The notes under the pieces are model-generated. The model was not told the DNA's origin and did not search any database. It saw nothing but the letters and a program-made list of their open reading frames with translations. DNA of 64,000 nt, from the NCBI GenBank assembly GCA_033964015.1, contig CM066912.1:14357399-14421398 (forward strand), in the 5' to 3' direction. Position 1 is the first letter of the stretch; each line of letters opens with the position of its first letter. The translations under genes and the position numbers were made by a program. Source of the DNA: Scolanthus callimorphus. Lineage: Eukaryota; Cnidaria; Anthozoa; Actiniaria; Edwardsiidae. This document shows, one piece after another, positions 15,703 to 50,200 of this stretch.

Positions 15703-15930
15703 GCGGTCTATGATAAACCAAGCTGCAACCGAAAAGTGGCCGGGAATCAATTTCCCAACTTCCGCCTTCCTGAAAACCGAAGGGAGCTACAGAAGCTGGC
15801 AGAAGAGCTAGAAGAGCGCTGCAGTATGGCAGAGATTGGTTTCGGCTTAGATGGGATTAAGGAACACATCAAGTCTACTTTCTGGGAGCGGTCACGCTCC
15901 AGAAAGAGAGATGGCACAGATTATGACCAG

Positions 15931-18433: not shown

Positions 18434-18494
18434 CATTTCAAGAGAATGCTAATTACTTGGCATATTTACAGTTGTTTTCAGAAAACTTTACCCG

Positions 18495-19630: not shown

Positions 19631-19635
19631 TAAAC

Positions 19636-24245: not shown

Positions 24246-24800
24246 CCCGTACCAAAACAACCCTATTTTAAAACTATTTTAAAACTATTTTTTACGATTT
24301 AAAAAAGTCAATGTCTATTTAAAAGCTATTTTGTACTATTTTAAAACTATTTTGTAAGATTTCAAAATAGTAGAAAACGTTTCTTACGCCTATTTAAAAT
24401 ATATTTTAATTATTTTATTTCTATTTGGCTTATTTAAAGTCTATTAAGCAAACTCAAAATAGAAAAAAAATATTTCTCAGAATATATTTTTTTTCTATTT
24501 TTTAAGTTTGTGATTCACCAAAATGAAGAAAATAGGTTTAAAATAGAACGGTGACAGTTTTCCGTTCAATAAAATGTTGAAAATAGAATTAAAATAGTGC
24601 GTTCGTTTTTCCTAAGAAACTTAGATAGTTTATTTAATCTCTATTTAAAAAAACATGGTGTTCTGGAAGCTTTGAAATTTTCGTACCCTATAACGGAGCT
24701 ATTTAATATCTATTTTAAAAGCATACAATTCAAGATAGAGTTTAAATTCAAAATAGAGTTTAAATATGTACTCTTTGAACCCCCACAAAAACTTTTATTT
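24246..24800. repeat. Tn-B left terminus and AT-word subterminal array
   Basis: Directly behind CCCGTACCAAAA come repeated CCTATTTTAAAACTATTTT words with variants such as CTATTTAAAAGC and CTATTTGGC. The word density falls off after 24800. It is the mirror image of 44985-45727. Confidence 0.85.
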
Positions 24801-25149
24801 TGGCAGTAGTCACAGCCTTTTTTACACTTCATTTTTGTTTGTTGCTTTGATGCTATTGTTAGTTTCTATTTTCATAATTACATTCAAACCACTATCCATG
24901 TGTTACTTAATTGACACATCTTTCATTGTTGCCATCTATCATTTCATATTTCTTTTTAAGCAATTTGTTTTGCCGTTGGCTCTTGCTTTAAGGTCCAAGA
25001 TGGCGTCGGCCAAATTGGGATTTTTTTACATATTCGTCAACAACGGCAGCAGCGGCAAGGCGCGTCTACACAAGGAAATATTGAACTTCTATTACATGGA
25101 TTAGGGTACAACAAAGTACTTTTTCCATGATTGCCGCAGTACATGGTGC

Positions 25150-28100
25150 TCAGTCCTTTTCATACACATTTGGAACTTTGCAGATAAATACCTGGGAGCC
25201 CACGTCAACCCTTAGGCACTTCTCTTTTATGGCAAAGAGTGGAATGAAATCAGTTCGATTCGTTTCCTTGAAAGGCTGAATGTGACTAACTACATCTATT
25301 CCATGATACTGCAGTAACGGGGCTCTTCCTTTCTTCAGCTTATTTATTACAGCAACATACCTCAACGCCACATTGCAGTCGCATTTTTGAAGAGCAAGAC
25401 AAGAGGCTTTCTTACACATCTCCTCGTATTTAATGTATTTTATCAAAGAGCCATAGCGGAACTGCTCTCCTTTTTCATAAAGAACAGTGAAATTATTCCT
25501 GGCTCTTGACTTCACATATGACTTGCTTTGCAGTTCCATGTCACGAACCAAAGCTCTTCTGAACACCCACAATTTCCTTGCTTTTATTTCTTCTCGTTCT
25601 TCTGCGGTGATGAGAGAGGAGTTTTCCCAGACCCGATCTAAGGATCCGACCACATGGATGCCATTTGAGATCTCTTCTCCAACAGTCCTAAATATAAAAA
25701 CCGAAATTCACACTAAGGGTTTAAGAAAATAATAGACCAAGTCATGATTATGATTTGACAATTAGTCGCCCAAGGCGACATAAATATCGGCGAATAGTCG
25801 CCGAGACGAAGTCGAGGTGACTATTCGTCGATATTACGGAGCCTGATCCCTAATTCTTTCAAAATATTCCGAACGTCTCGACCAATCACGGCACCGAATT
25901 GCTTAGTAATTATACTAATGTTTATTACTCTATATAATATGATTAAACCGTCGAGTTCCCACAGGAGACCACGGATCCCAGTATTTGTAGCTTACCTGCA
26001 TTGGCGTGATTTGTAAAGGAGGTGCTGGTAGAGTTTTTCTGCTGGGGAATCGTCCTTTAGGGACTGAGCCAGTTGAGGTAGGCTTTGGTGCACACAAACC
26101 GACTTGATAATCTTTGGATAAATTGCAATTTTATGTTAAAACTTGAAAGACAGTGATGTAAGTCCTGGAAAGGTTTTCCACTTGTAGCTGTCAGTTGACA
26201 ATACTCATTTTTTTTTAATTGCAATGGCTATATTAGATCTAGATAGAAGTTCGTCCAGATCTATCCGGATAATTCCGAAAACGGAGATTTTTTTCTCAGT
26301 TTTATGAAAAAAATCCATGTCCACACAGACCGTATTTAAATCGTATTTGCCCGTCCACGCGTATACGCCAACACAAACGTGTCCAACACAAACGTGTAGC
26401 AAATTACCATAACAAAACAGCCATAATCTCATTGCATGAAGTACACTTTAAATGGTATAATTTTTGTTATCATTCGAGCCTGTCAACTACACAAAAATAA
26501 CAAATATTCGTCTGGCGATCCAAATTGGGTAGCAACAAAATATTTAATACTGTTAGTTGACCTTTATCTAGAGTGGAAGTCTGTAAAGAAACTTTAAACA
26601 TAATTTTTCCATACCTGACCCTGTACATTCTGGCTGCCATGGTAGTATCCTTTGAAATCCCCATTGTATCCTTCAAAGAAGAAGCAACAGAAGTACCACA
26701 ATGGACCGAGTTCTTGGACTGTGTTCTTCAGATGTAACAGTTGGTGTACATTAAAGGTCTGGAATCTCTTACCTAAAGAAAAACAAAGTTTTTGAATTTT
26801 CTATTGCGTGTCTGCGCTTGCATTCTAGTGTGAGCCACAAAAGGGAAATGTATGATTTTTATATCCTTGTGGTTGTGCTTGCATGCATGCTTGTGTTCCA
26901 ATGAGAACCAGCCTTTAATCCGACTTGAAAAATATGATTTTCTCTCAATTGGTCTTGCTATTAGAAAAATCGATTAATTATTGATTATCAAATGAAAGTA
27001 CCCTGGTGTGCTTACTTAAGTTAATTGAGTAAGGGGCATACTGCACTACATATACATTAGCGTCTGTCTCCCATGCAATTTCAAATATATTGGCATGTTA
27101 CAATTTCCATTATACATCTACAATTTTGATTTATTTGAATTTAAGAGTATATTATGGTATACCATGAAAATAATCAATGTGACGATAACCCTACACATAT
27201 AACCTACATTATTGTTGAACTCATAATTGCAAATCTGATTGGTTGAGAGCAAACAACTCTCAATGCCGCATGAACTTGAGATGGTAAATGAAATATCTGT
27301 AGTAGATATTGCATTTAGCACGTCAAGTTCAAAATCAGTCATTTCCCTTGTCAAGCCCCTTGTCCCTGTTTTAATTTTAAAATTGAATAAAGTCTTTTGG
27401 CATCGTTTCAATTTGTCCTCTTTAAAATGTATAATAAAACAAAGTGAATTTGGTTACCACATGACATTGTGAGTAAGCAAAACCTAGTGCCTGTGTTATC
27501 TGCCTCAGCCTTCGGCAGATAACAGGCCCTGGATTTGCTAATAGACGATGGCATGCTCAAGATCATCCAATAATTGCTTAAAGTATGCAAACATACCATA
27601 AATATCTGGAGCTTGGGCACAGTACAGTTTTAGAAGTGTTTCTGCTTCCTTCAGTTCAGCCTTGGAAATACTGTCCTTCAATAGACGGTGCACTGAGCCC
27701 ACCAGGAAAGCAAAATGCAGTAAATATTCGTCATTAACATTGTTCTGCAGAAGAGGAATGGCATAGTACAACAGGAATGCTCTCTTCTCATTAGCTAAAA
27801 AGAAAATGAAAATCAACAAAAATAAGTCAATATTATTTCTTAAACTCATTAATTATTCATCAATCCTCAACAAAGAAAATTATAAGCGTGATATTTTCTT
27901 TCTTTTTATTTCTAGGTGTTACATAAATTATTCGCTCAATCCACTTCTCAGCATGTTTCATGCTGTACTCAAATTTATGTAAATCACATGCTTCTACTGT
28001 AATGTACATGTATATTGATATAGTACCCTAATGCTATTGAGATTGGTCCATCTTTATCATTGGCTGTCACAGGAAACATTTTTCTAAAAACCATTATGGT

Positions 28101-31100
28101 TTTTATAGTGGTTTTTGTTGGAAAAACCGTTCAAAACCATGAATGGGTTTGGAGAACCAAATCCATTCATGGGTTTTACAACAAAAAACAAATCCAAATT
28201 TGGATAGAAAATGTTTTAATAAGCAATTAAATCCATTCATGTGAAAACTGGTCTAACCATTTATGGGTTTTGCGTAAAATCCAAATTTGGATCAAAAATG
28301 TTTTTTGTAAGCGATATTCATGGGAAAACGGTAACCATTTAGGGGTCTGCGCAAAACCCATATTTGGATCGAATGTTTTTTGTAAGCGGTAATCCATTTA
28401 TGGGAAAACAGTAACCATTAATGGTTTTTATGCAACAAATGGAAAAACCATAAATGGTTTTCATGGGAAGTACATAAAAACCATTATGATTTTTTGGAAT
28501 TTTTCCCTGTACATGTCACATGTGCAGTAGGTGATTGGTGAAGTAATTAAATTCACATGTAAGTAAAGTTGATGCTCCAATTCCCTTACCGTTAATCTAC
28601 TGTATTACCTTTCCATGAATGCCAGTCAAGAAGGCTACGGGGCCTTTTGGTCACATCAGATGTTGGCCTTATCGAAAGAAAGGTGTGATCCATCTCCTTG
28701 ACTTTTTTGCCAATATAAGCAGGGCTTGACTTGTCCTCAAACCAGGCCTTCAAGTGCTGTTCCACCACTCCTTCGCACACACAGTGCATATAGTCTACAG
28801 CAGTACCAGATATCACATCATGCAAAGGCAATGTAAAGGCCCAAGAAAGACCCATCACGCCTTCCTTGGGAGACTAAAATAGATCAAACACATGTACATT
28901 TAGGTTACTTCCCTTTAATTTTTTTAAAATTTCCCTTTTAAATTTGATTCAAATTCCAGTATTTGGGCTTAAATACAAGGCAGAGGTAAGGGTCATAAAT
29001 CACATTTTGCAGTTGGTAACACACACAAAAAAAGAAGATACAATAATGTTTTACCGAAACTTTGCCCTTTAGTGCGATCTGGTCCATGGCAACTAAGGCC
29101 TGCTGCTTGACAATTTCATGATTCCGTCTAGGCGCATGGCCTGTTGTTGTGGCATAATCTCCATTGAAAGGATATATGTGGCACCTTCTTCTAGCATTTC
29201 CTCTTCCAGGCCCCAGATCAAGCTGCTCTCCAGGTTCAGTGCATTTTGTACAACCATAATAGCCATTGTATTGTTTCATGTTAAGCCAAGAGGCACGTGC
29301 TGGGGAGTCCATTGTAGTGGCCAACATAATCCCTTTAATGGTTTGGTCACCCACTTGGATTCCTGCAGCACATCACCGCAGCATGTTGATTTTAAATGAT
29401 TGTTTTGTGCTGCACTGTATCAGTTTTAAATGGATTGCTTAAAGTTACACTGTACCAAAGGGGAACAATCCTGACAACAAGTGGCAGGCTAGCAAACTGC
29501 CTGCTCTCTCAAAGATTTAGAGTGAGAACAAATCAAAAGTTTGAAAAAGAGGCTTGAATGAATAAATAATCAATTAATGAATACTCAATTAATAAATCAC
29601 CTATATAATAAATCAATCATTTAATTAATTAATTGATCAACCAATTAATTAATTAATTGATACTCAATTAATAGCATACTCGGTAGAGTTCATTAATTGC
29701 TAAAAAGCTTACCATCATTATACAAAGATTGTATACTTTTGCAGAATGGCTTCATGAAAGTAGGCATGTGTGGTTTTCCTGTAATTTGAAATAATATCCA
29801 ATAAGCAAAATTCAAATAAAAAAACAGCAAGATTGCATGAAAACAATGATTTGACTTTACCTTGTCCAAACCATAACCCTGCAAACAACCTGTTCGATCT
29901 ATTGAATCTACAATAAGTTTAAGGAGATAAATAAAACCAATTAATTCAGGAATGGCAAGGCTAGCAAATACATGTAATTTAGCCCACAGGGCACCCAAGA
30001 TCAATATTTGTGTTTTAAACCTGCTAAATGTTGCTAATTTCAGGGTAATTTACTACAAACTCAAAATGTAGGGCCTTCAAAAGCTGTATGATTTTTTTCA
30101 GCTGCCACAAAATCAAATCAGAATACAGCAAGTTGGTTGGCTGCTGGCAAATTTGTAGGTGGTTGCTGATGCTTTTATTGGTCACATATGCGTATCAAAT
30201 CTGGCATCAGATTGAAATGTGACCCCTAAAAGTAGGAGTTCTCTACACTGAGGGATGCCAGCGGTAGGTGCTATGACAATGTCTGTGCAACCCCTCTTAA
30301 AAAATGTCAGTTCTTTACATTTACTGGGGTTACAAGACATGCTATTGGCCTGTGTCCACAAATGCCTACATGTATTAAGAACTTTAAGAAAAGAAGGGTA
30401 TAACCAGAGAGAGATCGATCACCTATTTAAGAGTATAGTGTTACCGAATTTAACTTATGGGCTCGCTGTTTACGGCGCTTTGGAGGCTGAACTTACCGCA
30501 GTGCAAAATTTTTTAGACCGTTGTTCCAAGCGCCGTTATATTTCTAGCCAAATTAGTATTCATGAAATTTTAGAAAAACAAGATAAAAAAGTATGTAACA
30601 AAATTAGAAACCTTGATGGCCATCCTATGCATAACTTTCTACCTAAAGCTAAGGAGACGAAATATAATTTAAGGAAAAAAACATCATTAAGGCCTAAGGT
30701 AAATACCGAACGATACATGAATACTTTTGTAAATAGATTAATTTTTAGATATAACTTAGCTATATAGATTTTAGAATTTTACCATTTTACCATTTTATCT
30801 TTTATATTTCATTTGTAAACTCGCTTTTTATCATACATAGGATATGTATTTTTATCATATGGAAATAAAGACCTATTATTATTATATTATTATTATTATT
30901 ATTACATCCTTACTTGCAAGATATACATTAGGTACTAATCCATTTAATATCCATTCTCCCAACTCACCCTGGCCCTAATACACTGCTTCACTGCCATGTT
31001 CAATGACATCAGAATTCAAAGACTCAACAAGAAGGCTGTATTTTTGTCAGTGTAGCACATACCGCGAGAAAAACTTATTAATACCGGTAGTCAAAAAAAA

Positions 31101-34100
31101 AAGCAATATGCATTACGGGCAGGGTGAGTCAGCCCCTTAAAGGATATTTGAATTTATATAGACGCTGTTATTTTTGACCCTGGAATGTTTACAGATTAAG
31201 TATCATGAAAATGGAACTATGTAGGGCAGTTTTTTTAACAGCCCATTCTTTTACTCTAACCTTTCAATGGAAAATTGCTTACAGCTAGGATAGAAGAAAA
31301 ACTAAAAGTTCTTAAAAATGTGTCCATATAATTATTTGGGCTTTGGGGAAATACTTGCCTTTCATTGGGGGGAAGCTCATTGATCACATAGTAAACAGGC
31401 CAAACACTTGCTTTTGAAGAGGTTATTAGTGCTACACCATCTGTGTTTCCAAGCAATGAAATGTGAAGGGGGTTGTTTAAGAAGTTTCCATCAGATGATA
31501 ACATTTTATAGACTGAACCATCATACACATCTTCAATGGCTTCTGGGTCACGTTTTTGTCTTTGAAACCTATAGTTTAGCTTCTCCAGTGCACCAGGAAC
31601 TGCAAGAAAACATAGACTGTCTTATATACATATCATTGTTGTAGATAGCTATTTCTATTAATAGTGTAGCCTGCTTGCTGGTGGCTGCTTGTGTTGTTAT
31701 CCCAAAAAACCTGACCCCTTAAATGATCGGGCACCATCTTGGATTTTGAGAGGTGTGCGGTCCTGAGGGCAAGCGCTTCTCCCCTACATGACTCTGTGTG
31801 CCTTTCAAGATGGCACCAAATCATTGAGCGGACCAGGTTTACAGGGGTAAAAACACCAGCAGCTGCCTTCAAGCAGGCTATACTAACAGTGCTCATGGAA
31901 CCATGCTTCATATGACTAGAAGTATAGGACTAGAAGACAATGAAAATATTCCATATGCTGAAATTCTCATCGCATATAACCTACTTGCAATCCATGTATC
32001 ATGGACCATTGCATCAATGACTTGCCTTAGATCACACAAGTTCATGTCAAATTACCTTACCACAGTTTTCATAATTCTGTGAACTCTTGCTATCCATTTC
32101 CAACCGGAAAACTGCCTTCTGGCTTCCGTCAATCAAACTTTTCGAGTCACAACGAAGAGACTCGGGAGTTTGATTGGCAGATGCCAGAAGCCGGTTTGAC
32201 GGTTGGAAGTTGTTAGTAACACAATGTCATATATTGAGTATTCTTACTGGACACTGTTTGGTTGGTCCCTACCCAAGGCAAATGGTAACAATCAATAGAG
32301 TCCTGAGGTGAAGACGTCACAAATAACAAATGTTCGATTTAGCAATATTTGTCCCTTGATTTCGAAGGGGCATGTCGAATGAAAGGTACACACCAAAAAT
32401 GAAGAAAATCAGTTGAAATGCAAATGAGATATGTCCAGCTGAATACATAATTTTCTTTAACAAATCACTGTATTTTTTCTTCAGATCCAAATTGTTTGGA
32501 ACTGAGTCCAAAATGCAGTGATTTGTTAAAGAAAATTATGTATTCAGCGGACCATATCTCGGTCACGTTTCAGCCGATTCACTTCATTTTTTCCATGCAA
32601 CGTTCTTTGGAGTTGGTCTTTCGTTATTTGTGGACAAAAACATGACTTTCGAAATTTTTCAAATTTGTGACGTCACACGTTAGGACTCTATAGCACATTT
32701 ATGATAATAAGAAATATATAGCTACCTGACAAGACTGCTCTGAGTTGATCTTGGACAGGAATCTCGAGAAAGACAGCTTCTTCTTTAATGTGCATCCCAC
32801 AAACATCACAACTTGTCTTTTCATTTATTGATGAACCTAGGTAGCTCTGACAGACTTTGTTGTGGCAGTAATAATGTCGTACCATTCTCTGGGAGTGATA
32901 CTTTTGAAAATAGGAGTAAAGTTCATTGGATTCTTTTGGCATCTTCTGGTCCTTTGGGCAAACAAGGTTAATGAAAGCTAATATATCTTCAAGAGCCACA
33001 CTTGTAAGATGATGTCTTGCTACTAGACCAAGGAGCAATATTACAGACTCTTTCACTGTTAATTGGGAGCCATGGAATAAAGGGTCATTCATACCAGTCA
33101 TCTCTTTTGGTGGCTCATTTGTTTCTAGTACTGCTTCTTTTAAATCTTTTAACTCATTGATCAGTTCTAAATCTTCCAGCAAATCAGTTGAGTCACAGAT
33201 GTTATCACTATCACTTTTTTCAGAGATGTTTTTCTCACAGGGTACACTTTTCCACCACTCAGAATAATCCTCTGGAAAGCCTATAACAAAAAAGACAAGC
33301 TTAGAATTTCCATTCATGATTGATTGCATTAAACAAAATAACAAGGATCTATTCTGTGATGATCTGGATATACTTCTTAGTATAATTACTCAAGTGATCA
33401 CAAGATTGAAAGGATTGGGAGTGCATGTGAGAGTTTTGTAATGATCGTGAAACTGGTGAATGATAGGGCGTATTCCTGATGACCGTCATGAGAAATTCAC
33501 AATTACTTTCTATTACTCAGACTATAGGATTTATTCAGAATTTGTGTAATTACTTTGCGATTGGTTTCACTAACAGTGATATGAAAACCGCTCTAATCAC
33601 ATCACCTTTGGCGGCTAATTGTTAAATAATACTTAAAGAAACAACGGTGGGCTGGAAAGGGACTAATACACTCTATTATATGGCAGCCACTACTTCCGGT
33701 GAAATTCACCATGTTATTGCAGCAGAATTTCAGCCCAGGCAGGAAATTAGCACCCATGCTGAAAAAAATATGGACTCTCATTGGCCGAGAGCAGTGCAGT
33801 TTTTAGGTAACAAAGTGCCAAAGAAAAGTTAATGCAAATGTTCTTTCGAAATAGGTTTACAAAATGTTTTGGAGTTGAGTTATGGAAACATAACTGCTGA
33901 CAAGTTGTCAAGTTTTGGTCCAGATTTCAATCAAGGAAAAATGTGTGCGGCTTGTTCAGTTTCTAAGCAGATTTGTGAACGACTACTTAGACATTTTCAG
34001 AATTCATGTGTATTATTAAAAGGAAATCATACGACTTTTCTCGTCCAATTTTGAAAAAAACCACTCGTGCACATTTATATTCCAAAATTGAACTCGAAGT

Positions 34101-34822
34101 CGTGTGATTTCCTATCAACTTATTATTACTTAACTTATTGCGCTGACCCCATTGCAATATTAGCATTATGCTAAGTGCAATTACTTAAATTAAAGATTAA
34201 AGACTAAACAGCAAAATAACATGCACTTAAACTTAAGTAAGTTATGTTAAGCTTTTAAAATTTGCAAGATGGCCCCTTCATGTAATCTGCCCCTTAGACA
34301 GGTAATTTCTAAGTTTTCCTGCTGAGCAAAATCAAGTAAAGGTAAAACAAGTCCTCTTCTTTAGAGCGTTATTTCACCTAATATCGCGAAGAAATAATCG
34401 AGATTACAAAGGGAAAACAGCTCACGACTACGTGCAATGACAAAATCAAACTCACCAAAATCAAGTTCACGCGGAGTCTGATACTCTAGGAGTTCACCCT
34501 CAGTCTGATATTCTTCGTGGTCATATTCTTCGTGGCCATTATCGTGGTCATCATCGGGGGATTGCTCGCTTAAGCTCAATACATTTATGTCTTCGAAAAT
34601 TGACGTTTTCTCCTGGTGTTCTTCTCCCGTTGGTTCGTCGGGGTTCCCGCTTTTTCTGCCGTCACGTGTTGTAGAGTGTGATCCATTGCAGTTAGAAATC
34701 CGCTTTTCTAGGCGCGTTTCCAATAAAAATGAAGAATCTACTTCAAGATCTTGGCGAAAGAGCTGTTTACACGGTTTTACTGGACTAAGATCACCGACGA
34801 GAAGGCGTTTTGCGCCCAACAT
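25150..34822 (-). CDS. 12-exon tnp2-type (CACTA/EnSpm) transposase, 951 aa, apparently intact
   Basis: Exons on the minus strand, from the ATG at 34822: 34456-34822, 32726-33280, 31359-31599, 29995-30020, 29861-29878, 29713-29778, 29055-29362, 28609-28873, 27597-27794, 26615-26772, 25996-26111, 25150-25687. Every join keeps frame, and the sum is 2856 nt. Residues 1-122 are charged and unrecognised. Cys 261, 266, 280 and 283 (HYYCHNKVCQSYL, CDVCG) look zinc-binding. The RNase-H-like core has SLLGNTDGVALI (D361), VINELPPNER, GLWFGQGKPHMPTFMKPF (~397-414), TTMDSPARASWL (D443), CTKC (462-465), VDYMHC (D554, H557), FNVHQLLHL and CFFFEGYNG. It is the presumed cut-and-paste enzyme of Tn-B, acting on its termini in the nucleus. 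The exon 3 donor is GC. The start is the first in-frame ATG after TAG. Confidence 0.85.
25783..25835. repeat. Hairpin in transposase intron 11
   Basis: AATATCGGCGAATAGTCGCC pairs with GGTGACTATTCGTCGATATT across a 13-base loop. It is probably the core of a small MITE. Confidence 0.65.
27463..27553. repeat. Palindromic MITE, TGAGTAAGCAAAACC type, copy 1
   Basis: ATTGTGAGTAAGCAAAACC and TTATCTGCC pair with a partly decayed right arm (GGCAGATAACAG, GATGGCATGC). A better copy is at 61397-61496. It lies just beyond exon 9 (27597-27794) in the following intron. Confidence 0.65.
28068..28511. repeat. Non-autonomous CACTA-like MITE with AACCATTTATGG words
   Basis: The left end CACAGGAAACATTTTTC and the right end GGAATTTTTCCCTGTA are imperfect inverted repeats starting with the same CACAGG as Tn-A. 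The 440 bp interior is almost only variants of AAAACCATTTATGGGTTTT and AATCCAAATTTGGAT. It has no coding content and lies in a transposase intron. Confidence 0.7.
30310..30905 (+). mobile_element. Non-LTR retrotransposon 3' fragment
   Basis: The plus frame ending at 30767 has a LINE-type tail: CVHKCLHVLRTLRKEGYNQR, DHLFKSIVLPNLTYGLAVYG and FLDRCSKRRY. It is followed by a short 3' region, AATAAA at about 30863 and an (ATT)n tail. Only the C-terminal ~150 residues remain. It sits in the intron between transposase exons 3 and 4, opposite in strand. Confidence 0.7.
31663..31885. repeat. MITE in transposase intron 2 (terminal GTGTAGCCTGCTTG)
   Basis: ATAGTGTAGCCTGCTTG on the left pairs with AAGCAGGCTATACTAA on the right. 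Inner GGGCACCATCTTGGATTTTG and CTTTCAAGATGGCACCAAAT also pair, giving a ~220 bp hairpin with TA at the edges. Confidence 0.75.
32068..32215. repeat. Imperfect hairpin (CCAACCGG...CCGGTTTGACGGTTGG)
   Basis: The arms TTCTGGCTTCCGTCAATCAA and TTTGATTGGCAGATGCCAGA, plus CGAGTC/GACTCG next to the loop, fold back. It lies in transposase intron 2. Confidence 0.6.
32296..32690. repeat. TA-flanked MITE in transposase intron 2
   Basis: TAGAGTCCTGAGGTGAAGAC with GTCACAAAT at the left is mirrored by ATTTGTGACGTCACACG with TTAGGACTCTA at the right. The centre TTTGTTAAAGAAAATTATGT is also repeated inverted at 32448-32467. It ends in TA on both sides. Confidence 0.78.
34023..34112. repeat. 90 bp hairpin in transposase intron 1
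   Basis: GGAAATCATACGACTT pairs with GAAGTCGTGTGATTTCC, and CCAATTTTG pairs with CAAAATTG. It is a small inverted-repeat element or a MITE remnant. Confidence 0.65.
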
Positions 34823-34960
34823 TAGTTTGCAAGACTCTCGACTCACATAAAACCTCCTTGCTCTGTAGACTACCTAACGCGGGATCTCGAAGCGTGCAGC
34901 GGCTTTCTTAATTCACAGAAGCGCCGCGCATGCTTAAAAGTAGTCTACCAATCAGATACG
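34823..34960. promoter_or_regulatory. Shared bidirectional promoter of Tn-B
   Basis: The interval between the transposase start (34822, minus) and the leader exon of the BEN-like gene (plus). It is GC-rich compared with its surroundings, contains the inverted 9-mers GTAGACTAC (34865-34873) and GTAGTCTAC (34940-34948), and has a CCAATC at 34948-34953. No TATA box is evident. The promoter role is inferred from head-to-head gene layout. Confidence 0.55.
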
Positions 34961-35100
34961 CGCATTTGTTTGGTTTTTCCCTCGTATCATATTTCAACGT
35001 CTTGCTACCGCATATCGAGGAATCGATCTCCATCGTGGCAAAAAAAGCTCATTTAAAACCTTCTTTGGAAGCGCTATCCTTCGTTGACAATAGTCGTAAG
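34925..35100 (+). other. Probable 5' leader exon of the BEN-like gene
   Basis: Ends at TCGTAAG/GTAGGT, a good donor (35100/35101). The next supported acceptor is CTCTACAG at 35582, one base before the ATG at 35584. A frame starting at 34930 does not continue into exon 2 (it meets a stop), so this exon is read as untranslated, possibly with an upstream ORF. The left boundary is a guess. Confidence 0.4.
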
Positions 35101-35583
35101 GTAGGTAATATACCTTTGTTACTTAAGGGCCGGAAAGAGAGAAGAAAACACTTATCAAAGGGGAGATCAGGAAGCTTAAATAATACTTTGAAAGGACCAT
35201 TTGAACATGCAAGCATATTGCTCGAATAACAAGCCGCTACCTTTGCCTGATACTCTTCAACGCTTGAACTTTTCTGAGCCAAATTCAACACATCTGTACC
35301 GGAATGGTAATTTCATAATATTGGCGGTCTGATAGTGACTATCAATAAGAGATCGGGCTAGAAGTTGAATTCCTGCGTCTCACAGAACCACGAGGCTCGA
35401 TGAAATTTGATGCGCGTTCAGTGCTGAGTCGTACCTGGTACCGCTGAACGGTGGACTTTATCATTACGGCTAAAAGTTTGTGATATTGATTTGGTTATTA
35501 AAGTTGACCGAATATTTAGAAATGCTCGAACAATTTGAATCTGCTGATTACAAGTATTTGACTATTTTATTGCACTCTACAGG

Positions 35584-38500
35584 ATGCCATATGCCGTTGT
35601 TTCTTGGCACACTCGTGGAGGGACTAACCTACCATCTGTTGCGGTGGAAGCATTGGCCGTTAACAAAATCTGCGTAGATGGAGGTGGTGAGGCAGAATCG
35701 GATAAAAACTGCTCAATGCAGTACAGCCAACAAATCTGGCAAGGGGTAGTGGTATCTGTCCATGGTAAATACAAAGCAGTTACCGCCTTTCATTATCAGT
35801 AAATGCCATTCATTCCTTAATCACGGCTCATGCAGCTCAAAGCCTGATCCAGGGGGATCCGGATGATGCCCAGAAACTCAAAAGTATGAAACTTATTGAG
35901 TCAGGCTTTAGTAAAAATTTATTCTGTGGCATGTATATGTAATGATTTTTCACATTTCTGTTTTTTGTTTAGCATCCCAGAAATTGGCCAATGAAGCTCG
36001 AGACTCCTTTGTCTCTGATGATCCAGGTGAATATACTTATAATTTTGAGGGTTACTAAAAAAGGTAGCAAAATATAGCCTAATTTACTCTAATACAGGAA
36101 GTGTGCTGGGTACTTACACTTTCACATTAAGTTTTTCAACTACAGCTGTGTTTAAGCTTTCCAAAATACAACAATTGCAAGAGCCCTTTTCATCCACAAG
36201 TTTTCTCTAAGCTCACACCATTTTGTCACTTGCGTGTCTCAGAAACGACATTTGTCTGCAGAGGCTACTTTTGCATAGTTGAAAAACACAAGAAAACACT
36301 AAAATCAAAAGAAAACACAGGGAGATAAAAAGTAGCCTCTGCTCGCAGGGAATATTTTCTGCTATCAAAATTTCCCGCTTGCATGCCCCCATACCCCTGG
36401 AAGCCACAAAAACTTCCAGTGGAATTAGTTTCATTAAATGTTTTTCAACTTTACTTTTATTAGAATCGGACAGAGAAGTTAATGCAGAAGATGTGGAGAA
36501 CTGACAGTAGATACTGCACCCCCAGACAGGAGCCTGTCAAATGATTCAGGTACTGCCTTTCTTTAGTCCAAAAAGGCAAGAAGCTATTTTTATATACTGG
36601 TAGCTCTGTGGTACAGAAGAGCCTAGCCAACGAACCATTATTATTATTATTGTTATTACTATTAGTCTAGCAGATATTCTTTAGGCAATTGATCTACAAA
36701 AGGGAAGGATCTAGGAATTTGGATTATACAGAAAAAACGTTGCAGCTCTGTCCTTTATAACTCCAATCATTTTTGCAAACTAGTACTGTCACCTTTTAAA
36801 GTTAAGAAACTTAATAGTGTACACTGCAGACAGAGGCCTCATTTTTATGTATTGCCATTCCAGGCAAATACAAGAAAAGAGTGTTCTTCCAGCTGGTTAG
36901 AACAGCGCTTTAAACAATACAAAACATTCAATATTACAGAATAGTTAATACTTTTTTGCTTCACAAAGAGTTTTTGTGCATTTCTTGGGTATACTATGCT
37001 ATCAGTTTGTATTTTTGAAACTAATAACATTTACTGTCTGAATTATCCACAGAAACTAATGATGCATTTGAAAAAGGCTTACCTAATAGTGAAGGTACAG
37101 ACAGAAAATGATTAAACTTTAGACTTAATGGGTTGTTGCTGTTTCTTTCATTGAACAGCACATACCAAAGATTGAGTCACCTAAGGTCTATCAAATGATA
37201 TGAGTAGTTGTATAATAGATAAAAACTTATTTCCAGTCTCAAAAAGACAATTTTCAAGGAAACATTTTTCCCTTCAACAGAGTCTTCTGGTAAACAAAGA
37301 CAGAATGGTCCTCGCAGTCCAAAGAAGCGAAAAAGAGGAAGTTCCAAGAATAGTGAGAAAGGTATGTAAATGTTTGTCAATGAACAGTATGTTTTTAAAA
37401 ATCTTGTGTCTGAATACACACACTACAATGGTTGGCTATCTTTAACAATTTTTTCACAATTTAACTGCAGGCAAAACACAAGCCAAGCCTGCTAAACCAA
37501 AGTCTACTGGTAAAAAACAAGCACAGCCTAAACAAGCTAAGAATCCAAAGAAAGGTATGTATTCCATTAGTATTGTGTGTTTCCTAAAAATATCCATACC
37601 CCCCCTACAGAAGGGATTGGAAATTCCAGAGGGGTGGGGGGTCAATTTACCTGATATGTTCCATACAAATACTGTATTTTTCTTCGGAAATTCCAGAGGG
37701 GCAGGGGGGGTCATTTCTCAACACCCTTCCATGGGGGGGTATGGATATTTTTTTGGAAACACACATTCTAACAAAAAAGAATTCCAGAGGGTGGTAAGAC
37801 AATTTATTTCAAGGTTGTTCATGAAAAGGTCACTTTAATCAAAGGCCTGATGGCTGAAACAGGGTGCGCTACAGGATCTTTTTTGTGGCTGCCTACCAAA
37901 CAGGCCATCTTTATACATTTTAATTTTTACTTTCAGGGGAAAAGCAAGCAAACAACGTGAGGAGAAGTCCAAGGAAAGGTACCAGACATCTTAGTACATC
38001 ATACAGTATTGTATAGGCAGTTTAATTCAGTGCATGCTAGGAACCCATCATCTGCCAGCTTTTTTTTTTTATGACAGATGGCAAAAACATGCAAGTGTGT
38101 CAAACAGGATTCTTTGCCAAGCTCTTATTTATGAAAGGATAAATGTATGGGAGTGTACAAAAATTAATGGGGAGATCTGACAAGACCTCTAAGTGCAGTA
38201 AACTCCAACAAAATGCAGGAGACTCATATTTTTTTGGCTTCATGAATCACTATTTTAATGTGTGTTTGTTTTTGTTATAAATAGTTTCCAAGAAGCAACC
38301 AGAAGCCAAGAGTCCAGGTATGTTCACAAATTGTGTATTTCTTTATTTGCTATCAATTTTAAGCAAGTTTGTTAGGCCAAGCACTGCAGACAAGACTTGT
38401 ATGGCTTGTAAGGTCCCATACAGATGTTTCTTCTCTCATACCTTTCTTTTTAAAGATCCACAACAAAAGTTGTCAAGGAAACTGGTTGAGGATATCCTCT

Positions 38501-41500
38501 ACCCCCTTACGGCCAGCCATAGTGATGCATCAGATGATTCAGATGAGGTTCAATGTGTTGAGGGTGGTCAGCTGTCAGCCCCAAGACCTCAACAACACCA
38601 ATGCTACAGTTTAGCATGTGCCAAACAAAAAGACGACTTAAGAAAGGAAATTGGGGCATTGACGCGGGAAATTTTAAAGTGTAAGTTAAGAGACAATGAA
38701 TCTGTTAGCCCAAATGGTAGTTTCACTGGCATGGTATGTGTAAATGGAGCGAGTGGACGGAATAGAAATATTTTTCAAGATGTATACATCAAGGCTTTAA
38801 AATTTAAAATCAAGCAATCAAAGTTTGCTCCAATTCATAATCACATCTGTAATTTGTGTTACTATGCTGTGTGACTATGTCACAGGGAGGGGGATTTTGT
38901 TAGAAAGCCAATCAGAAAGAGAGTACAGATCAAAGTATTGACTTTCTTGATATCTCAGGCATTGAAATATTTGCTTTTCTCTGAAAATTGAGAAAATTAT
39001 GAGCAGTAATCGCTTTTAAAACACTAAATTACTCATTTACAGCTGTTTCAGGTAAAACACGGCTATGTGTGTTCAAAACATTTTTGGCAGTTGGGTTTTT
39101 CTGCAAAGTCAATCAAATTGCCTAGCGCAGTGAATTGGCTTCGGTTGCGACATGTCTTGCAAGGGAAGCCAAACAAAAGCACTGGGCAAAGGATTTGATT
39201 GGCTCACACGGATTGCATTGATTGACAGCGCAGAAAACCCCAACTGCCAAACTCCAAAAGAATCTGACAACGACAAAGTTGCGTGTTACCTGAAACAGCT
39301 GTAAGCCAAACTTAGTTCAGGTATTAAGTTAAACTTAAAGGAAATTTCCTTAAAATGGTTTGAATCTCTGAATGCAGACAAAGTTTTTATGGGATGGCCC
39401 AGTTGACATGGTAATTGACATAATATTGCGAGACAGCTCTTTAAATTAAAAATCTGAGATTTCAAGTATCCCCAAGAATTTGTGAGATTTTGCATTATGT
39501 ACTTCCTGCAATATATTTTCTAGGGTAAACATACTATTTTTCAGCAACATTGTATATGGCTTGGGTATTCAGAAGACTGAGCCATTGGTTAACATATAAT
39601 AGATATTCAGACCTTGACCTTCCTATTACATGGTATTTTAGTGAAATCTGATGAAGGTCGAAGTCAGCCTCTCAATATACAAGCAAGGAGGGAGGTTGCA
39701 ACACATGAAGGGCCAATGATGGCACAGGAAGCCAGCGACAAGGGGGTGATTATAAATTATACTACTTTTAGTTTTAACTTTTGCTGATTTATTGTAGCTC
39801 CAAGGAAAAGGGAGGATTTCTTCCTTGGTGGCTAGCTAACCTCTATAACCACCTTGTAACCTCACAGGGGACTCTGTATGTGACAGCTATTAATTGATGC
39901 ATGTGCAAGATTTAATACAGCTGTCCGCTTAGAGATTAAGGAGAACTTTCTCCACATATGCTACCGGTAGAAACATTCAAAATCAGCCAATCAGCAATAC
40001 CCTCAAATATAAGCTGTCACCAGAGCCTTCCCTTCTGTGAGGCAACCAGCCATGGAGCAATTGTATGAGCACTAACAAGAAAATCAAAACAAAAGTTGAG
40101 AAATAGAAACTACATGGAATGAAACTGCAGTTTTTGTAATTCTGCAAACTTTGGCAGACTGAATAAAACCATGGTTTTGGCTTCCATCACAAAAAAAAAG
40201 AGTGAACTGAGTTCTGTGATTTCACATGGCTTTGAGAGTTTTTTTAACTACCGACCTATGCTCCAGGAGACTTTGATTTGAAATTCCAAAATTTGATGAA
40301 AAAATTCCAAAGTTTGTGTTTTTCTATACAACTTGCTTGGCACAGCACTCTGGGATTCATTTTCCATATTAAATGCATAATCAATTAATATGCTAATACG
40401 TTCATATTTAATTATCTGTTTCAGTTTTCTGAAATTGCAACTGGGGTGTGGTGCTGCCCAGTGAAAGTGAAGGCACTTATTAACTCCTGCAAGTCAAGGA
40501 GGCAGCTTGCCACATCAATGCTTGGCATCTTTTTTGACCTTAAGGGGGTAGATAAAGGCAGGCGGCTGTCTGAGCTTGACAGCAATATAACAACGGCAAT
40601 CATAGGTTAGTTGCAAAAACCATCACTGCTGGTTAGTGCATTGATCATGTTTATTATTGGCAATACCGGTAAATGTAATAAAATTCCAAATAACCCTGAA
40701 CAAAGACCTTGCATGGAGTATATTCTGACTGCAGTAATTGCTTTTTTGTTCGTTTTTCCCTGCATGAACTTTCCCAATTTTCATTGTTTTAAATCATTTG
40801 TTCTTTCATACCTGACCCTCTCCTCTCCTTCCCCCCCCCCCCCCCCCCCTTCATTTATTTATGCAATGTGATGTTTAGGACTGCTTTTGTTACCTTTTAA
40901 TAGATTTTGCAGTGGTGGCAAAAATGCCTGAAGGGATTGCCTCGTGCAAGCAATCTGACGTACGGCAAGCAATGAGTGTCAGGCTAAATGGCTATGTGCA
41001 CCAGAAAAAACACCCTGGCTACCATCAAGGTAATTTCATTATATTTTGTATAACTTCACTGTAATAGGATCGAGGTTTGGTGCTTTTTACTAAACTCCAA
41101 TTTCTCCTAAAATAATCACAAGTAAAGTTCCATGCATTTAAGCCACAAAAAAAAAAGAAAATTCATAGGTTCACGTTTACTGTATAGCTTCCTTATCAAC
41201 AGGACTTTGGCCAGTGTGGGAGTCTAGGATCCTTCACACTGCTGTCTCCTGAAAAATTGCTAAAACATTGTTAATAAAAGCTTGTGTTTTTCCCATGTTG
41301 ATTTATTATTTCTTGAGATTTACTGGCCTGGACTTTTTTGAGTTTTTTACTAAAAGTATTGCCATTTCACTGATCACTTCATTATATTACATGCAGTCAA
41401 GTGAGCAGTAGAGTGAATGTGGTGTACAATCGAATTTATAATGTTGTTTGCAAATATTACATGAAACTTCACTCTTCCATCAGCCAAAATATATAAACTT

Positions 41501-41699
41501 AAATCCAAATTCCAAAATATGATTATGATATTAAATTATGAGAGTTTAATTTCTATCATTTTTCTTTTTCGCAGAACGATACAAAAAGAATAAGCGCCTG
41601 CGTGGCAATGACGAAGGCGAGAAAAAGAAGAAGAAAAGAAAGAAGCACAAGAAGAGCAAGAGATCTAATCCCGAAGACGAATGCCCCATGCCACAGTAG
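35584..41699 (+). CDS. BEN-like DNA-binding protein, second gene of Tn-B (13 exons, one frame lesion)
   Basis: Exons: 35584-35764, 35973-36026, 36464-36549, 37053-37094, 37281-37361, 37471-37554, 37937-37978, 38285-38317, 38456-38680, 39642-39745, 40425-40605, 40904-41029, 41575-41699. Nearly all joins are phase 1. The N-terminus (PYAVVSWHTRGGTNLPSVAV...IWQGVVVSV) looks like a small beta-rich reader domain. Next come short Lys/Pro/Ser exons (SPKKRKRGSS, KTQAKPAKPKSTGKK), a coiled segment (LRKEIGALTREILK), then a BEN-like domain (~312-413: KVKALINSCKSRRQLATSML, FDLKGVDKGRRLSELDSN, DVRQAMSVRLNGYVHQKK) and a basic tail. Exon 3 is 86 nt, one short of the phase-keeping 87, so the frame breaks after AEDVE. 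Total about 454 residues if corrected. BEN domains bind DNA; reading Tn-B's end words is inferred. Confidence 0.7.
37575..37765. repeat. Hairpin MITE, GTTCC/ATCC type, copy 3 (best preserved)
   Basis: The left end GTGTGTTTCCTAAAAATATCC leads to ATACCCC, and the right end GGGGTATGGATATTTTTTTGG leads to AAACACAC. The inner TTGGAAATTCCAGAGGGG and GGAAATTCCAGAGGGGCAGG also belong to the fold. It is 191 bp, in an intron of the BEN-like gene. Confidence 0.82.
39037..39304. repeat. MITE with ~23 bp terminal inverted repeats (TTACAGCTGTTTCAGG)
   Basis: TTACAGCTGTTTCAGGTAA at the left mirrors TTACCTGAAACAGCTGTAA at the right. Inner GGCAGTTGGGTTTT and AAAACCCCAACTGCC pair. It is in an intron of the BEN-like gene. 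Confidence 0.82.
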
Positions 41700-41878
41700 G
41701 TCTCTTGCTCAGGCTTTCCTACAATGTAGATGGAGCATTTGAATTTTGGAGGGGGGAGGGGGGATAGGATTTAGACCTTACCAAGTTTTTTGTCTTTCCA
41801 TATAAATAGTTGCCCGTGAAGAGAAACCCACAACTGATGGCAATGGAGAGAGCACTTTGAAATTTGTAAAATTGCAGG

Positions 41879-42037
41879 GGCGTAGCCAGGGGGGTCCAGG
41901 GGGGCCGGGGCCCCCCTCTTTCTAGGAAATTTTCCCATACATTTACTGTATTTGCTGGAGAAAATTTGAGCATTTTCGTCCCATGTTTTCACTATCCCCC
42001 CCCCCCCCCCCCCCCTTCAGAAATTCCTGGCTACGCC
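41879..42037. repeat. MITE with GGCGTAGCCAGG ends
   Basis: GGCGTAGCCAGG at the left and CCTGGCTACGCC at the right are perfect inverted 12-mers around a G-run/C-run interior. Ends of this form are common among short non-autonomous elements in animals. Confidence 0.8.
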
Positions 42038-42563
42038 GCTCAATTGCATTGTCTCACCACAAAAATCTTCAGAATTCTGAGCTTGGCAGCTATGCTACCA
42101 TAATGCACAGCGTCACCACCATTTTTGATACCTCAAACCTAATTATTTTTGTCAGTTAAGGGCATCATTTAACCCCCCAAAACGAAATGAATCACGTAAA
42201 CAGAAACCAGCAATAAAATATCACTGGGTCATTAACATTATACATAAAATAAGTTTAAATGTCAGACCATGTTTTGATCTTTGTAATTTTCGAGGTGCCC
42301 TTTCTAGCCATGCATCTTTTAGCTTTTTCTCATTTTATCTTGTTTTTATAATTGTATATATTATATTTTTATGTTTGCTCTATATTAAGTTCAATATTAT
42401 TAAGACTTCAGCTCGCCGCATGCATTATTTATATATTGACAAATTAAATATTGATTGCAATGGAACAGTAGACAAACAAATGCATATGATAATTACATAT
42501 ATATAATCCAAATTGTGAGTTTTTTATGTATATATATATATATATATATTTTATGGTATACTT

Positions 42564-42755
42564 AAGCAATAGAGAACTTTTTCCGTGTCTACATACTCTG
42601 ATGCAAACACGAGGGGAGGTTGGGAGAATTCGAGACAGTTATGCAGCCACGAGACCGAAGGTCGAGTGGCTGCATAACCTGTCGAGAATTCTCCCAACCT
42701 ACCCGAGTGTTTGCATCAGAGTATGTAGACACTGGGAAAAAGTTCTCTATTGCTT
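42564..42755. repeat. 192 bp near-perfect palindrome
   Basis: AAGCAATAGAGAACTTTTTC ... GTTATGCAGCCAC is followed after a ~16 base loop by its reverse complement, GTGGCTGCATAACCTGTCG ... AAGTTCTCTATTGCTT. Arms are about 87 bp with a few mismatches and gaps (for example GAGGGGAGG against CCTACCCGAG). Confidence 0.88.
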
Positions 42756-44002
42756 TTATAAAATATCTTTCACTTTTTGAAGCGAAAGATTTAAAATTAA
42801 TTTATTTCAACATTTTATCTGAATATATAAATTCTCCTTACCGCGCGACGGTCTGAACGGGCCAATCAGAAGGCGTGTTATATCGCATGTGTTTTAAAAA
42901 CGTTTTTCACTCAGTTCGCTGCAAGTTTTGCGAAGGGGAGGCGAGAGAAAACTGCTTTCTTAAGAAACATTTCACGACTTTATTGACCTCTTCTATGGTG
43001 TTTATGGTAATTGAAGCATAAGCGAATGTCAATGAAGGGATGTACGGGTTAAGAATTGCAAAGCCGAAGGAATTTTCCATACAAGAACGGCCTTCATGTT
43101 GATTTGCCGAGTTTTGGAAAGGCGAATTCGGCATCGAAAAAGCAAAAATAGCGTGTGTCTTGTTTCGATCTTCAAATCAAGCAAAATGTTAAATACCAGA
43201 CTGGAATAATACTATGAAGGCTTCAATTGTTGCTGATGCCATGAACGAATGTCCATGAACTGTCACTCGATGGTATTGAATTTTTGAAGCAAGTCAAAGT
43301 TTCGTCGACAGTGCCGCCGGTGTTCGCCGATCGCCGGTAAGAATTTCATGTTTTGTTAATGCTTCAAATCTTGTTAACTTGCTAGCAAACGACTTTTTAC
43401 CTACTCGGCTTGTGAAAGATCATCATTTTGAAAAATTGAATAGGAAAGTAATAAAATAAATTGTGATTTATTCAATAATTTGGTCTTCGTTGTTCTTTTT
43501 CATTTTGGCTAGCCGATTCGCCGAAAGTCTCCAAATCCATAAATTTAGTTGGGTCGCTTAACTTGATTTGTGTTGTTTTTCTCCTCTTAGTACGAGCTGT
43601 ATACTTTTAAAAAGTTCCCAGAAGTCAAAGAAATCGTTTCATAAAGGGAGGGAAGAGGATGTCGGAGGACAAACATATCATGTATAATCGTACGAAAATG
43701 TTGACAATCCTGAAAATTTACACGCGTTTGACTAAAAAAGTCGAAGACAAGCCAATTCTTTGAACTTGTGGTTAAAGGATGGGACGACAAATGATAGCTA
43801 AAAAGAAAACAGCACTGCTTTCACAATTTCATTGCTTCAAGTGTTTGGATAAATTTTTGTCCAAATGTATAAAGAATGAAAAAAGAAGACAACGCAAACG
43901 TCGTCCCGGGCGTGACGTCACAACCGTGTTTATATACTCTCATATAAACACACCTGTCGACCAATGAGGGCGCGCGTACTATCTTAGTTATTTTATAAAC
44001 TG

Positions 44003-44070
44003 TAATAATTGTCTGAGACCTGGTATTTGATTCTGGGTCTTAATCAAATATCTGTCTCAGACAATTATTA
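44003..44070. repeat. Hairpin TAATAATTGTCTGAGAC
   Basis: TAATAATTGTCTGAGAC and TATTTGATT pair with AATCAAATA and TCTCAGACAATTATTA. It lies in the Tn-B right arm. Confidence 0.75.
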
Positions 44071-44984
44071 TAATACCGTTCTGATCTAATCGATCATCAC
44101 ACTCTGTGTCGCAAGGACCCTTGAAGTATATTTTATAGTATTTTTCAAATGAAAGTTGTTATTAATTAATTATTTATTAATTATTTATTTGATTGTTCAT
44201 GTTACAGATATATAACCTAATCAGAAATGAAAAATCAGAATTCATTGGCAATTGATGAACATATAATATAACATGCTATATTGTTAAGGTTGCTCTGCGG
44301 ACACCTCCCAAATGGCTAAAAATCAAGTAGGATCGTTTACAAACAGCATCATGCTTGTGAAAACATAATATTGTATTATGAATATGAAATAAGAAAGATG
44401 AATTGTGTTTTAATAGAATAAATGATATTTACTCGACAGACTGGTAGTATCATTGTCTTGTTAATGCTGCATTCAAATTGTTATCCCAGGCTACTGTGCG
44501 TCAACTTCGAACTGTAAGTACAATAGCATCTCAAAAGAAATGCTGTTCTCCAAGAAAACAAATCAGTATCTTTTATGAATGTTGATCAAAGCAATATTGT
44601 CACTGTTGCTGTGTACTAGTGTTCGATAATGATCCGCTGTATGACGATCAGCAATATCACTGCCAACTCTCCAGGTTTTTTAACAAATCTCCCGGTCTCC
44701 AGCAGGTTAAAGCATCAATATCTGCAGGTTTTTCAACATTGTTCTTATACACAGTCAGACACAAAAAAGTCAACCGAAGTCTGCGCCATAGAGTTCGGAC
44801 GGTTTTCGGAAGAAAGGTTTTGAAAAGACTCGGGAAAACGAGATGGTTCCGACGAATTATCCAGGTTTCAGAACGTCTGGGGTTGACGTATGCAATATTG
44901 ATTTCCTTTATGCTTTTGTTCCTTTCCTGAAGCTTTGAGTAATTGGTTAATGTTGATAAATATCGTTCTAGTGGTATTATCTTC

Positions 44985-45727
44985 AAAAACTAATAATAAC
45001 TATATTTCTATAGTAGTTTTTTTTAAGTTTAAAAAACATCTTATTCCAGGATTTATACTCTATTTTAAATTTATTTTTGTGGTGATAGTATACTATTTTA
45101 TGCTGTTTTTTCTCTATTTTTATTGTATTTAAAAGCATTTAAAAACTATTTTCTGCCATGTTCTTCCAGGAAGTCCAGCTTTCACTATTTTGAATTTTTT
45201 GTCTATTTTAAGGCTATTACAAATAATAGAACTTTTACTATTTTAAATGATTTCGAGATTCTATTTTAACTCTATTTTTTGATCAACAAAAAACTTTTCT
45301 CTATTTTTATTCTATTTAAAAAGCATGGAAGCACAATTTTATTCTTTGTTTCTCCAATTTTTTTAGGAAGTCACGCTTTCACTATATTTTTAATCTATTT
45401 TGATCTATTTTAAAACTATTTAAACCAATGAGACAATACAGCTCTTCACTATTTTAAATGATTTTGAGATTCTATTTAAACACTATTTTATATAATTATT
45501 TAAAATAGACAAAAAATAAATTTAAAATACATTCCAACCACCTTTAAAATAGGTTAAAAATATTTTACAACCATGGTTAAAATAGTTCGGTGTCTCATAA
45601 CCCCTTGAAAATTAAAATAGTGAAAAATTAATTTTGATAGCATTAAAATAGCTATTTAAAATAGAAAAAAAATTACAATTCAAATAGTATTAAAATAGCT
45701 TTTAAATAGAGTTCATTTTGGTACGGG
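44985..45727. repeat. Tn-B right AT-word subterminal array and terminus
   Basis: Dense TATTTTAAA, CTATTTTTAT and TTAAAATAG words, mostly the reverse complement sense towards the end, lead into TTTTGGTACGGG (45716-45727), the inverse of the left terminus. Confidence 0.85.
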
Positions 45728-47212: not shown

Positions 47213-50200
47213 TCATTTCTTGAACAATGTCTTCAGCTGTCCATGCACTTTGGCATTTTTAACACTAGCTTTGACAAGGGACATCAGGTCACTTTTACAA
47301 AGCTCACATGCAGAGTCTGTCTTGTTTTTGCTCAAACCACAATAGCAAAAGCTAGCATCTTTTATGCAATGGTTTGGAGTGAACATTTGACAAGTTTTGT
47401 TCCTATGGAACCACAGCTTGGTATGCTTTTCTCTGAGCCACACAGAGCTCACAAATTCATGTTTAAACACACTCAGCCAGCGAGCATGGTGGGAAACAGA
47501 GGGGGTGAACTCCATGAATTTTTTCAGCTTGACATGCTTGGCTTCTCTCCCTTGCATACTATTTAGACCTAGTCCATGACCTAGCTCATCAAAAAGCTGC
47601 CGAGCATGAAATGGAACAGCATAACCGATTGTCCATGTTGTTGGTGTTACATTACTTAAAAACAGTGACCAGGCATTGAAAAATTCTTTTGCAGTAAGCT
47701 CCAGCCGTTCAATATCTGTAAGTGTTACTTTGACACGGCTAAAAACAGATGCAGAATCTCTTAGTTTTAAGGCCACATATGCTAATACATGGAGTTTGAC
47801 CTTTGTTTTTGTATCTGGTGCAAATGGCAAGAAGACTTTAACTAGCTCAGCAAAGTACCAGGCACACTGTTTAGATTCTTTGCCTGTAAATCTATAACTT
47901 AGTTTCTGGTTGGTTTTCCTCCCATCTGCAAACCACCTACATATACACTTCCACAGTCTGTTACATTTGACAGTGTATCTAAGACAATGCATAAACATGG
48001 AAAATGGACTGTTAGTGGGCAGGTAACTAACATTTGTAGAGGCGTTGAGAAGCTGATCAGGTACAAATGACATTGCCATGGTCACCAGAATAAGGAACCA
48101 CTGCTGTCAAGCATTATTGCTGTTATGCAAGGGCTCTGACTTGCAGTACTTTACAAATTTGCCTAGTGGTGGGACACATTCTTGCCTAGAGCCTTTCCTG
48201 GCAATAAATTGAGTCACCTGTGCCCTCTGACTCTTGTCATTTGGATTTGAGAGCTTTTTCTTGAGCTTCTCTACTTGTTGTGCTGTAGCAATTCTGTGAT
48301 TATAGCTCCAAGGCTGCCAGGTGGATTTTTTGGGATCTAATCCAATGCTCCCATTTCTGATATCCATGTTTTTCTTACTGACATTAGCAAATGGAGAGAA
48401 ATATGTAGCAGCATTATTAAGTTCCCCTGACATGTCAGAGAGCCACTTCATGTCTCCAGTAATTAACTTGAATGTGTATCTGCAAGTGAAAACTATGTCA
48501 TTCACTTCAATGGAGTACTCCTTTAATTCTATTTCCTCCATTTCTTTCACAAGAGCCTTTGTGTATTCTAACAGTATTGCATCAGATTCACTACAGCTGG
48601 CACCAAGTAAAAGATGATTTTCATCACAACTGTTCACTTTTTTCAGTAAGTTTAGAAAACTTACAAGATAAGCTGTTGCACATTCATCTCTCCCAAATGG
48701 AGCACCATCTGCCCCAAGGGCAATTAGAAACTCATTTTCTTTCCCATTAAACCAATGGAAGATACTTTCATCAGGACTAGAACTGTCTACTAAAAAGTAA
48801 AACTTGGTTAGTCTCAAAAGACATGGCTCAAGCGTTCTGTAAACACGGGGTGCAGCTGGTACATTAACTTCTTTTGCAAAATCTTCCAGGCTGTACAGCC
48901 CTCCTATATCAGCCTTGGTATTTATAGATGACATAAGTGCCTTGTATGGCATAATTTTTGGGAGAGTTACTTTACTGTCTGGCAATACTGGTAAATCTTT
49001 AGAAAGTCTCATGCCACTATATTTTCTCTTACTTATAAGCCCCCCATTGTACAGAGTTTCTAAGCTTCTGACCATATTATCATCACTTTTCTTTAGATCA
49101 TCTAAGCTTTCTTGATTATGTTGGGAATTACTTTGGTCATACAAAACTTTGAATTTTGCAAATACTTGGTCATTTGCTCAGCTGTTGTGTTTTTTACTAG
49201 TGTTACCCACACCCCATCATTTACAGATGGATTTATATTTTTCTCATTATTAGCACAATGGATGTCCTTGAGGCTGTCAAGTGTGCTCCTCCTTCTTCGT
49301 CTTGCCTGTCTTTCAGACAATGTTAAAATCTCACTATTTCCAGGGGCTGTTTTGCTTGATGTCGATGGAGATTTTCTTTTCTTTTCAGGTTGAGACTTTT
49401 CGGTGTCACTTAAATCAGCTAGCTGCAAATATCATTAAACAGCAGGACCTTTACAATGCTAGAATTATTATATTATTCAAGTTGGCTAGTACAATTGCAC
49501 AAAACCAGCATAAGGGACAGGTTCAAGTCAGGAAGTAATATAATGACAAGGGGATAGCTCCAAATGACAGACAGAACACTAGCTAAATGCAAGCAACTGG
49601 TTCTCTCCACCATACAAATCCATTATCCCAGTCAGGCACTAAACTGGTTCTCTCCATGACACCAAGTTATTATTCCAGTCAGGCACTAAATGCAAGGGAC
49701 TGATTCTCTCCATAACACCAAGTTATTATTCCAGTCAGGCACTAAATGCAAGGGACTGGTTTTCTCCATAACACTAAGTTATTATTCCAGTCAGGCACTA
49801 AATGCAAGGGACTGGTTCTCTCAATAACACTAAGTTAATATTCCAGTCAGGCACTAAATGCAAGGGACTGGTTCTCTCAATAACACTAAGTTATTATTCC
49901 AGTCAGGCACTAAATGCAAGGGACTGGTTTTCTCCATAACACTAAGTAATTATTCCAGTCAGGCACTAAATGCAAGGGACTGGTTCTCTCAATAACACAA
50001 AGTTATTATTCCAGTCAGGCACTAAATGCAAGGGACTGGTTCTCTCAATAACACGACGTTATTATTCCAGTCAGGCACTAAATGCAAGGAACTGGTTCTC
50101 TCCATAACACTAAGTTAATATTCCAGTCAGATACTAAATGCAAGGGACTGGTTCTCTCAATAACACAAAGGTATTCCAGTGATTGGGTGACACTCCTTTA

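Follow-up and report, generated by a model that had tools for sequence, protein, structure and literature searches.

Gene content and ends of the element

We analysed a 64,000-nucleotide stretch of the genome of the cnidarian Scolanthus callimorphus (henceforth the window), corresponding to C2:14357399-14421398 of a 596.8-Mb assembly that was also searched for further copies. Positions 24246-45727 of the window hold a large element with inverted ends that encloses two genes pointing away from each other, one predicted to code for a tnp2-type transposase and the other for a protein that we term the partner. A preliminary description of the locus had presented it as a 21.5-kb CACTA-like transposon carrying a divergent pair of transposase and BEN-like genes. 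Its features are as follows:

24246-45727, no strand: whole element, window copy (W); 21,482 bp, or 20,045 bp minus a piece found only in this copy
24246-24257, plus strand: left terminal inverted repeat CCCGTACCAAAA, exact over 12 bp
24246-24780, no strand: left subterminal array, 535 bp, with 13 CTATTT and 7 AAATAG
25150-34822, minus strand: predicted tnp2 (Transposase_21) transposase gene, 952 amino acids, 11 coding exons
Transposase exons 1-6, minus strand: 34822-34456, 33280-32726, 31599-31359 (GC donor), 29907-29861, 29778-29713, 29362-29055
Transposase exons 7-11, minus strand: 28873-28609, 27794-27597, 26772-26615, 26111-25996, 25687-25150
34823-35583, no strand: gap between the start codons of the back-to-back genes, 761 bp, presumed to be a two-way promoter
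35584-41699, plus strand: predicted partner gene, 439 amino acids, 13 coding exons with GT-AG sites
Partner exons 1-7, plus strand: 35584-35764, 35973-36026, 36508-36549, 37053-37094, 37281-37361, 37471-37554, 37937-37978
Partner exons 8-13, plus strand: 38285-38317, 38456-38680, 39642-39745, 40425-40605, 40904-41029, 41575-41699
42562-43998, no strand: W-only piece, 1437 bp, missing in both other full copies
45040-45727, no strand: right subterminal array, 688 bp, with 18 CTATTT and 9 AAATAG
45716-45727, minus strand: right terminal inverted repeat CCCGTACCAAAA, an exact inverted match to the left one

The inverted ends and mirror-image arrays of AT-rich words claimed in the preliminary description are both borne out. 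The outer 120 bp of the left array contain seven CTATTT and no AAATAG, and the outer 230 bp of the right array mirror this with nine AAATAG and a single CTATTT, the outer blocks being oriented alike relative to each end. These words reach a density of 38.4 per kb in the two ends, compared with 0.74 between them and 0.85 elsewhere in the window, and occur 7-18 times per word in the arrays, far above the means of 0.45-1.0 per word obtained from dinucleotide shuffles of the same DNA. Inspection of the flanks by eye for ends lying outside CCCGTACC yielded no fit. The window copy does have the size first given, but we take the mobile unit to be 20.0 kb because 42562-43998 is absent in both other full copies; this piece is either a nested insert in W or a loss from the other two.

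Exon models of both genes were built from reading frames, splice sites and relatives, and both frames are open, in agreement with the long divergent multi-exon genes originally described. In the transposase chain the phases agree and there are no internal stops, with GT donors at nine of ten introns and a GC donor at the other. Its product matches PF02992 (Transposase_21; E 1.5e-10, 41.1 bits against a cut-off of 28.6), while DUF1258 lies slightly over its own cut-off and DUF4218 under its own. The tnp2 assignment and open frame stand, with 11 coding exons in place of the 12 first counted. Such a number is not unheard of, as plant CACTA transposase genes have 1-6 exons in the 64 studied, and maize is cited with as many as eleven (PMC4158355). 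The residues D361, D444 and E716, together with C463xxC466 and H692xxxH696 between D444 and E716, agree with the rule given for the CMCT group (CACTA, Mirage, Chapaev, Transib), namely C(2)C and H(3-4)H between the second D and the last E (PMC12730594). Sequence identity to the RAG1, BbRAGL and Transib transposases is 10-12% in the compared rows, and neither ends of the recombination signal sequence type nor a RAG2-like partner were noticed in the element, no search having been aimed at either. Among viral contigs there was no match to the P0001 patterns.

The partner is a basic protein with coral relatives and a compact helical domain that is possibly BEN-related, the possible BEN-like domain being encoded by the exons at 40425-41029. 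The BEN-like label given to it earlier stays unproven. Pfam lists no BEN domain for the draft partner (E 0.1), its relatives (E 1) or the domain by itself (E 10), with filters that drop most matches above 0.1; two PDB sequence searches returned, respectively, no match and two weak matches, neither of them BEN; and a Foldseek comparison of a poor partner model with PDB and BFVD structures found nothing below E 0.6, a result that excludes nothing because the model is poor. Furthermore, no link between a BEN domain and a CACTA/tnp2 element appears in the open-access titles and abstract openings listed. The chance that the partner is instead some other helical protein peculiar to corals, either DNA-binding or structural, which the Pfam and PDB results and the lack of a Foldseek match below E 1 with the same model favour, falls only a little short of even.

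Copies, target sites and empty sites in the genome

The exact 12-mer CCCGTACCAAAA occurs at 101 sites in the assembly, as against 68 for a reversed control, so some unpaired end sites are expected by chance. Among the 100 of these 101 sites listed, 44 form 22 inverted pairs of 0.7-4.5 kb, which we term short copies, and six form three pairs of 20-21.5 kb, namely W and two further full copies:

C2:1203707-1223738, opposite strand: full copy A
C2:15004643-15024695: full copy B

By virtue of their selection by the exact end pattern, all three full copies and all 22 short copies have CCCGTACCAAAA at both ends and termini starting with CCC. The full copies are pairwise 99.93-99.95% identical over 20.0 kb, with 10 (W-A), 14 (W-B) and 12 (A-B) substitutions and 23-26 gaps per pair, many of one base, whereas their flanks, compared over about 2 kb per side, do not match one another. 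Inverted stretches common to the left and right flanks of copy B (77-89%) place this copy inside some other repeat. W and B have an open transposase frame, with two residue differences between them, and all three copies have an open partner frame. As A and B bear the ends along with both genes, the earlier proposal that both genes lie within one CACTA-related transposon, for which a search for end copies flanking them had been suggested as a check, is well supported.

The short copies resemble the 20-kb unit at their right ends (84-88% identity over 220-283 bp in 21 of 22) and left ends (73-76% over 184-194 bp in at least 19). With the transposase (E 1e-3) and the partner (E 1e-2) as tblastn queries none of the 22 was matched, nor did their interior DNA match that of copy B (E 1e-10), and on account of this they do not have the look of simple internal deletions of the 20-kb unit. 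They are young; median pairwise substitution among them is 1.05% (16 of 22, six of unusual length excluded), and two of them, L022 and L029, have no substitutions between them, yet their target duplications differ. Of the 50 unpaired exact end sites among those listed, BLAST detects family-like DNA on the inner side of 20 (in some cases through matches of only 29-45 bp) and not of the remaining 30. A truncated copy of the 1.5-kb family, in L094 at 201-1416 (from C2:1191757; 99.3%), ends after 1218 of 1531 bases and lies 12 kb beside full copy A. A fourth, apparently older and broken relative of the full copies occurs on contig C3 near 27573476, with 88% identity over the first 203 bp and four stretches at 91-96% spanning the last transposase exons.

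Exact 2-bp target duplications flank 17 of the 22 short copies, as against 0-4 of 22 with a 2-bp match at offsets of 1-11 bases, and the duplication of copy B is likewise exact (TG/TG). A search of the 22 short copies for longer duplications, of 3 to 10 bp, was negative. We then compared 24 joined flank pairs (those of the 22 short copies, W and B, with A left out) with the family loci retrieved, obtaining one clean empty site, one weak candidate and no site for the other 22. The clean case is the short copy L009, whose flanks, joined minus one GT, can be aligned across the junction without interruption (83% over 252 columns); the DNA that they match is a related repeat lying upstream of copy A, and loci L040 and L095 are one and the same place. 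The weak one, in which L026 is set against window 51556-51714, extends only 22 bases beyond the junction.

Classification, proposed mechanism and alternatives

Based on the presence of Transposase_21, CCC ends and 2-bp duplications, we file the element under the TRC branch of CACTA/EnSpm, which it fits, and not as a wholly undescribed superfamily. The TRC elements of DeMarco and co-workers (SmTRC1 of Schistosoma and those of Tribolium and Aedes) share these three traits, including inverted ends, and SmTRC1, with 2-bp direct repeats at the ends of 7 of 14 copies, likewise has a second protein besides the transposase (PMC1636069). The element departs from known TRCs in its size, in having two divergent genes with 24 coding exons between them, and in that its partner has no known family. 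TRCs measure 4.5-9.2 kb, as against 20.0 kb here, with inverted ends of 54, 27 and 10 bp as against 12 bp, and the second proteins of SmTRC1 arise by alternative splicing and are described there as without detectable conservation, whereas here a separate divergent 13-exon gene has coral relatives (PMC1636069). The other cnidarian TRC that we met, Spongebob_HMa (EnSpm-4N1_HM) of Hydra, shares the CCC ends and 2-bp duplication and was assigned to the TRC branch of CACTA, but it measures 5,836 bp and its exact transposase was not found in that account, being spoiled by stops or frameshifts, in contrast to the intact genes of the 20-kb unit (PMC4298943). Plant CACTA elements such as Spm also pair a tnp2 transposase with a second protein between inverted ends, and in some CACTA families the second open reading frame aids excision and transposition; however, they have CACTA ends and a 3-bp duplication, whereas here the termini are CCC and none of the 22 short copies matches at 3 bp (PMC4158355).

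Together, the ends, the target rule and the enzyme fold point to cut-and-paste movement by a DDE transposase, and we put at roughly 85% the probability that the element is an autonomous cut-and-paste transposon of the TRC branch, a figure that covers transposon identity and recent movement. Directly shown are the ends, the 2-bp duplications, the near-identity of three copies whose sites are unrelated, the frames kept intact in two of these copies, the family of the transposase and a relative's fold. The minus-strand gene would supply a DDE transposase of the RAG1/Transib fold, whose expected reactions are cleavage at the CCCGTACC ends and their joining to a target cut with a 2-bp stagger; the 1.5-kb short copies may be moved by the same machinery. 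Plant CACTA and Spm elements carry subterminal repeats, as this one does, and these are bound by TNPA, which in maize Spm brings the ends together. In light of the dense end words and the co-encoded basic protein with a helical domain, we posit a comparable end-binding helper, in that the partner would bind the CTATTTTAAA words within each end and bring both ends together; this is the role that we favour most, although, taken by itself, we advance it tentatively and rate it as somewhat less than evenly likely. We infer protein production and cutting, as well as partner binding to the end arrays.

Several points weigh against this interpretation. Both genes are predictions from sequence, and the action of the partner on the arrays is proposed by likeness to TNPA. 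W, A and B all lie on one contig (C2) of a single assembly, and W (TG/TC) and A (GT/CG) are without an exact 2-bp duplication, leaving one of three full copies with it. No empty site emerged for W or B among the loci compared, no genome-wide search having been made. Two one-base deletions in the transposase exons of copy A break its frame, and the position after the last catalytic E is D in 14 of the 14 relatives covering the site but G (G717) in W, A and B. Furthermore, the 23 kb examined of the relative on C3 contain transposase stretches but nothing that matches the partner.

The G at this position, the frameshifted copy A and the older broken relative would also suit an element that is real but no longer autonomous, its transposase impaired and its last moves made in trans by an unseen relative. 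We regard this as unlikely, given that W and B keep the two frames intact and all three copies keep that of the partner; that no better source copy was seen counts for little, as no genome-wide protein search was made. Spread of the three copies by segmental or assembly duplication with no transposition, as their shared contig and the two inexact target sites might suggest, is highly improbable because the flanks share nothing between copies that are alike up to CCCGTACCAAAA on both sides, while copy B has an exact duplication and short copies with the same ends follow the same rule.

This one genome holds two copies in which neither frame is broken, a third that is nearly identical to them, short relatives, a 2-bp rule and a short-copy empty site, such that an end-to-end mobility test becomes possible for a RAG1-fold relative paired with its own accessory protein. 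The bolder proposal, that a coral TRC/CACTA lineage carries a BEN-type chromatin protein as its own end-binder, reading CTATTTTAAA, with a RAG1-fold transposase moving the 20-kb unit, strikes us as somewhat unlikely; if true, animal BEN proteins would have a source or sink encoded by a transposon, and the two gene products would be analogous to the TNPA-TNPD pair. A BEN-type partner would in itself link an animal chromatin-regulator family to DNA transposons.

Other features of the window

A second, different CACTA-like element occupies 6487-20043, bounded by a perfect 32-nt inverted repeat that starts from CACAG (6487-6518 and 20012-20043), flanked by ATA/ATG and carrying subterminal repeats. 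Its layout also looks divergent, with tnp2-like frames on the minus strand (Transposase_21 4.7e-6, 26.4 bits, slightly under the cut-off) and coding-like exons on the plus strand from about 12960 to 17300, the start of which we take to resemble a SAM domain. Between these plus-strand exons lie reverse-transcriptase frames at 13945-15092 (RVT_1 3.6e-14 in 13945-14292), a LINE-like insertion within the second element, and downstream of them, at 17300-18260, a coding-like stretch is apparently repeated, as judged by eye. Elsewhere, two adjoining long minus-strand frames at 47213-49177 (297 and 356 amino acids; no Pfam match at E 0.05) are perhaps another transposon gene, and a long minus-strand frame at 56503-57405 contains repeated NATEEDRENERGRKRDARK-like units.
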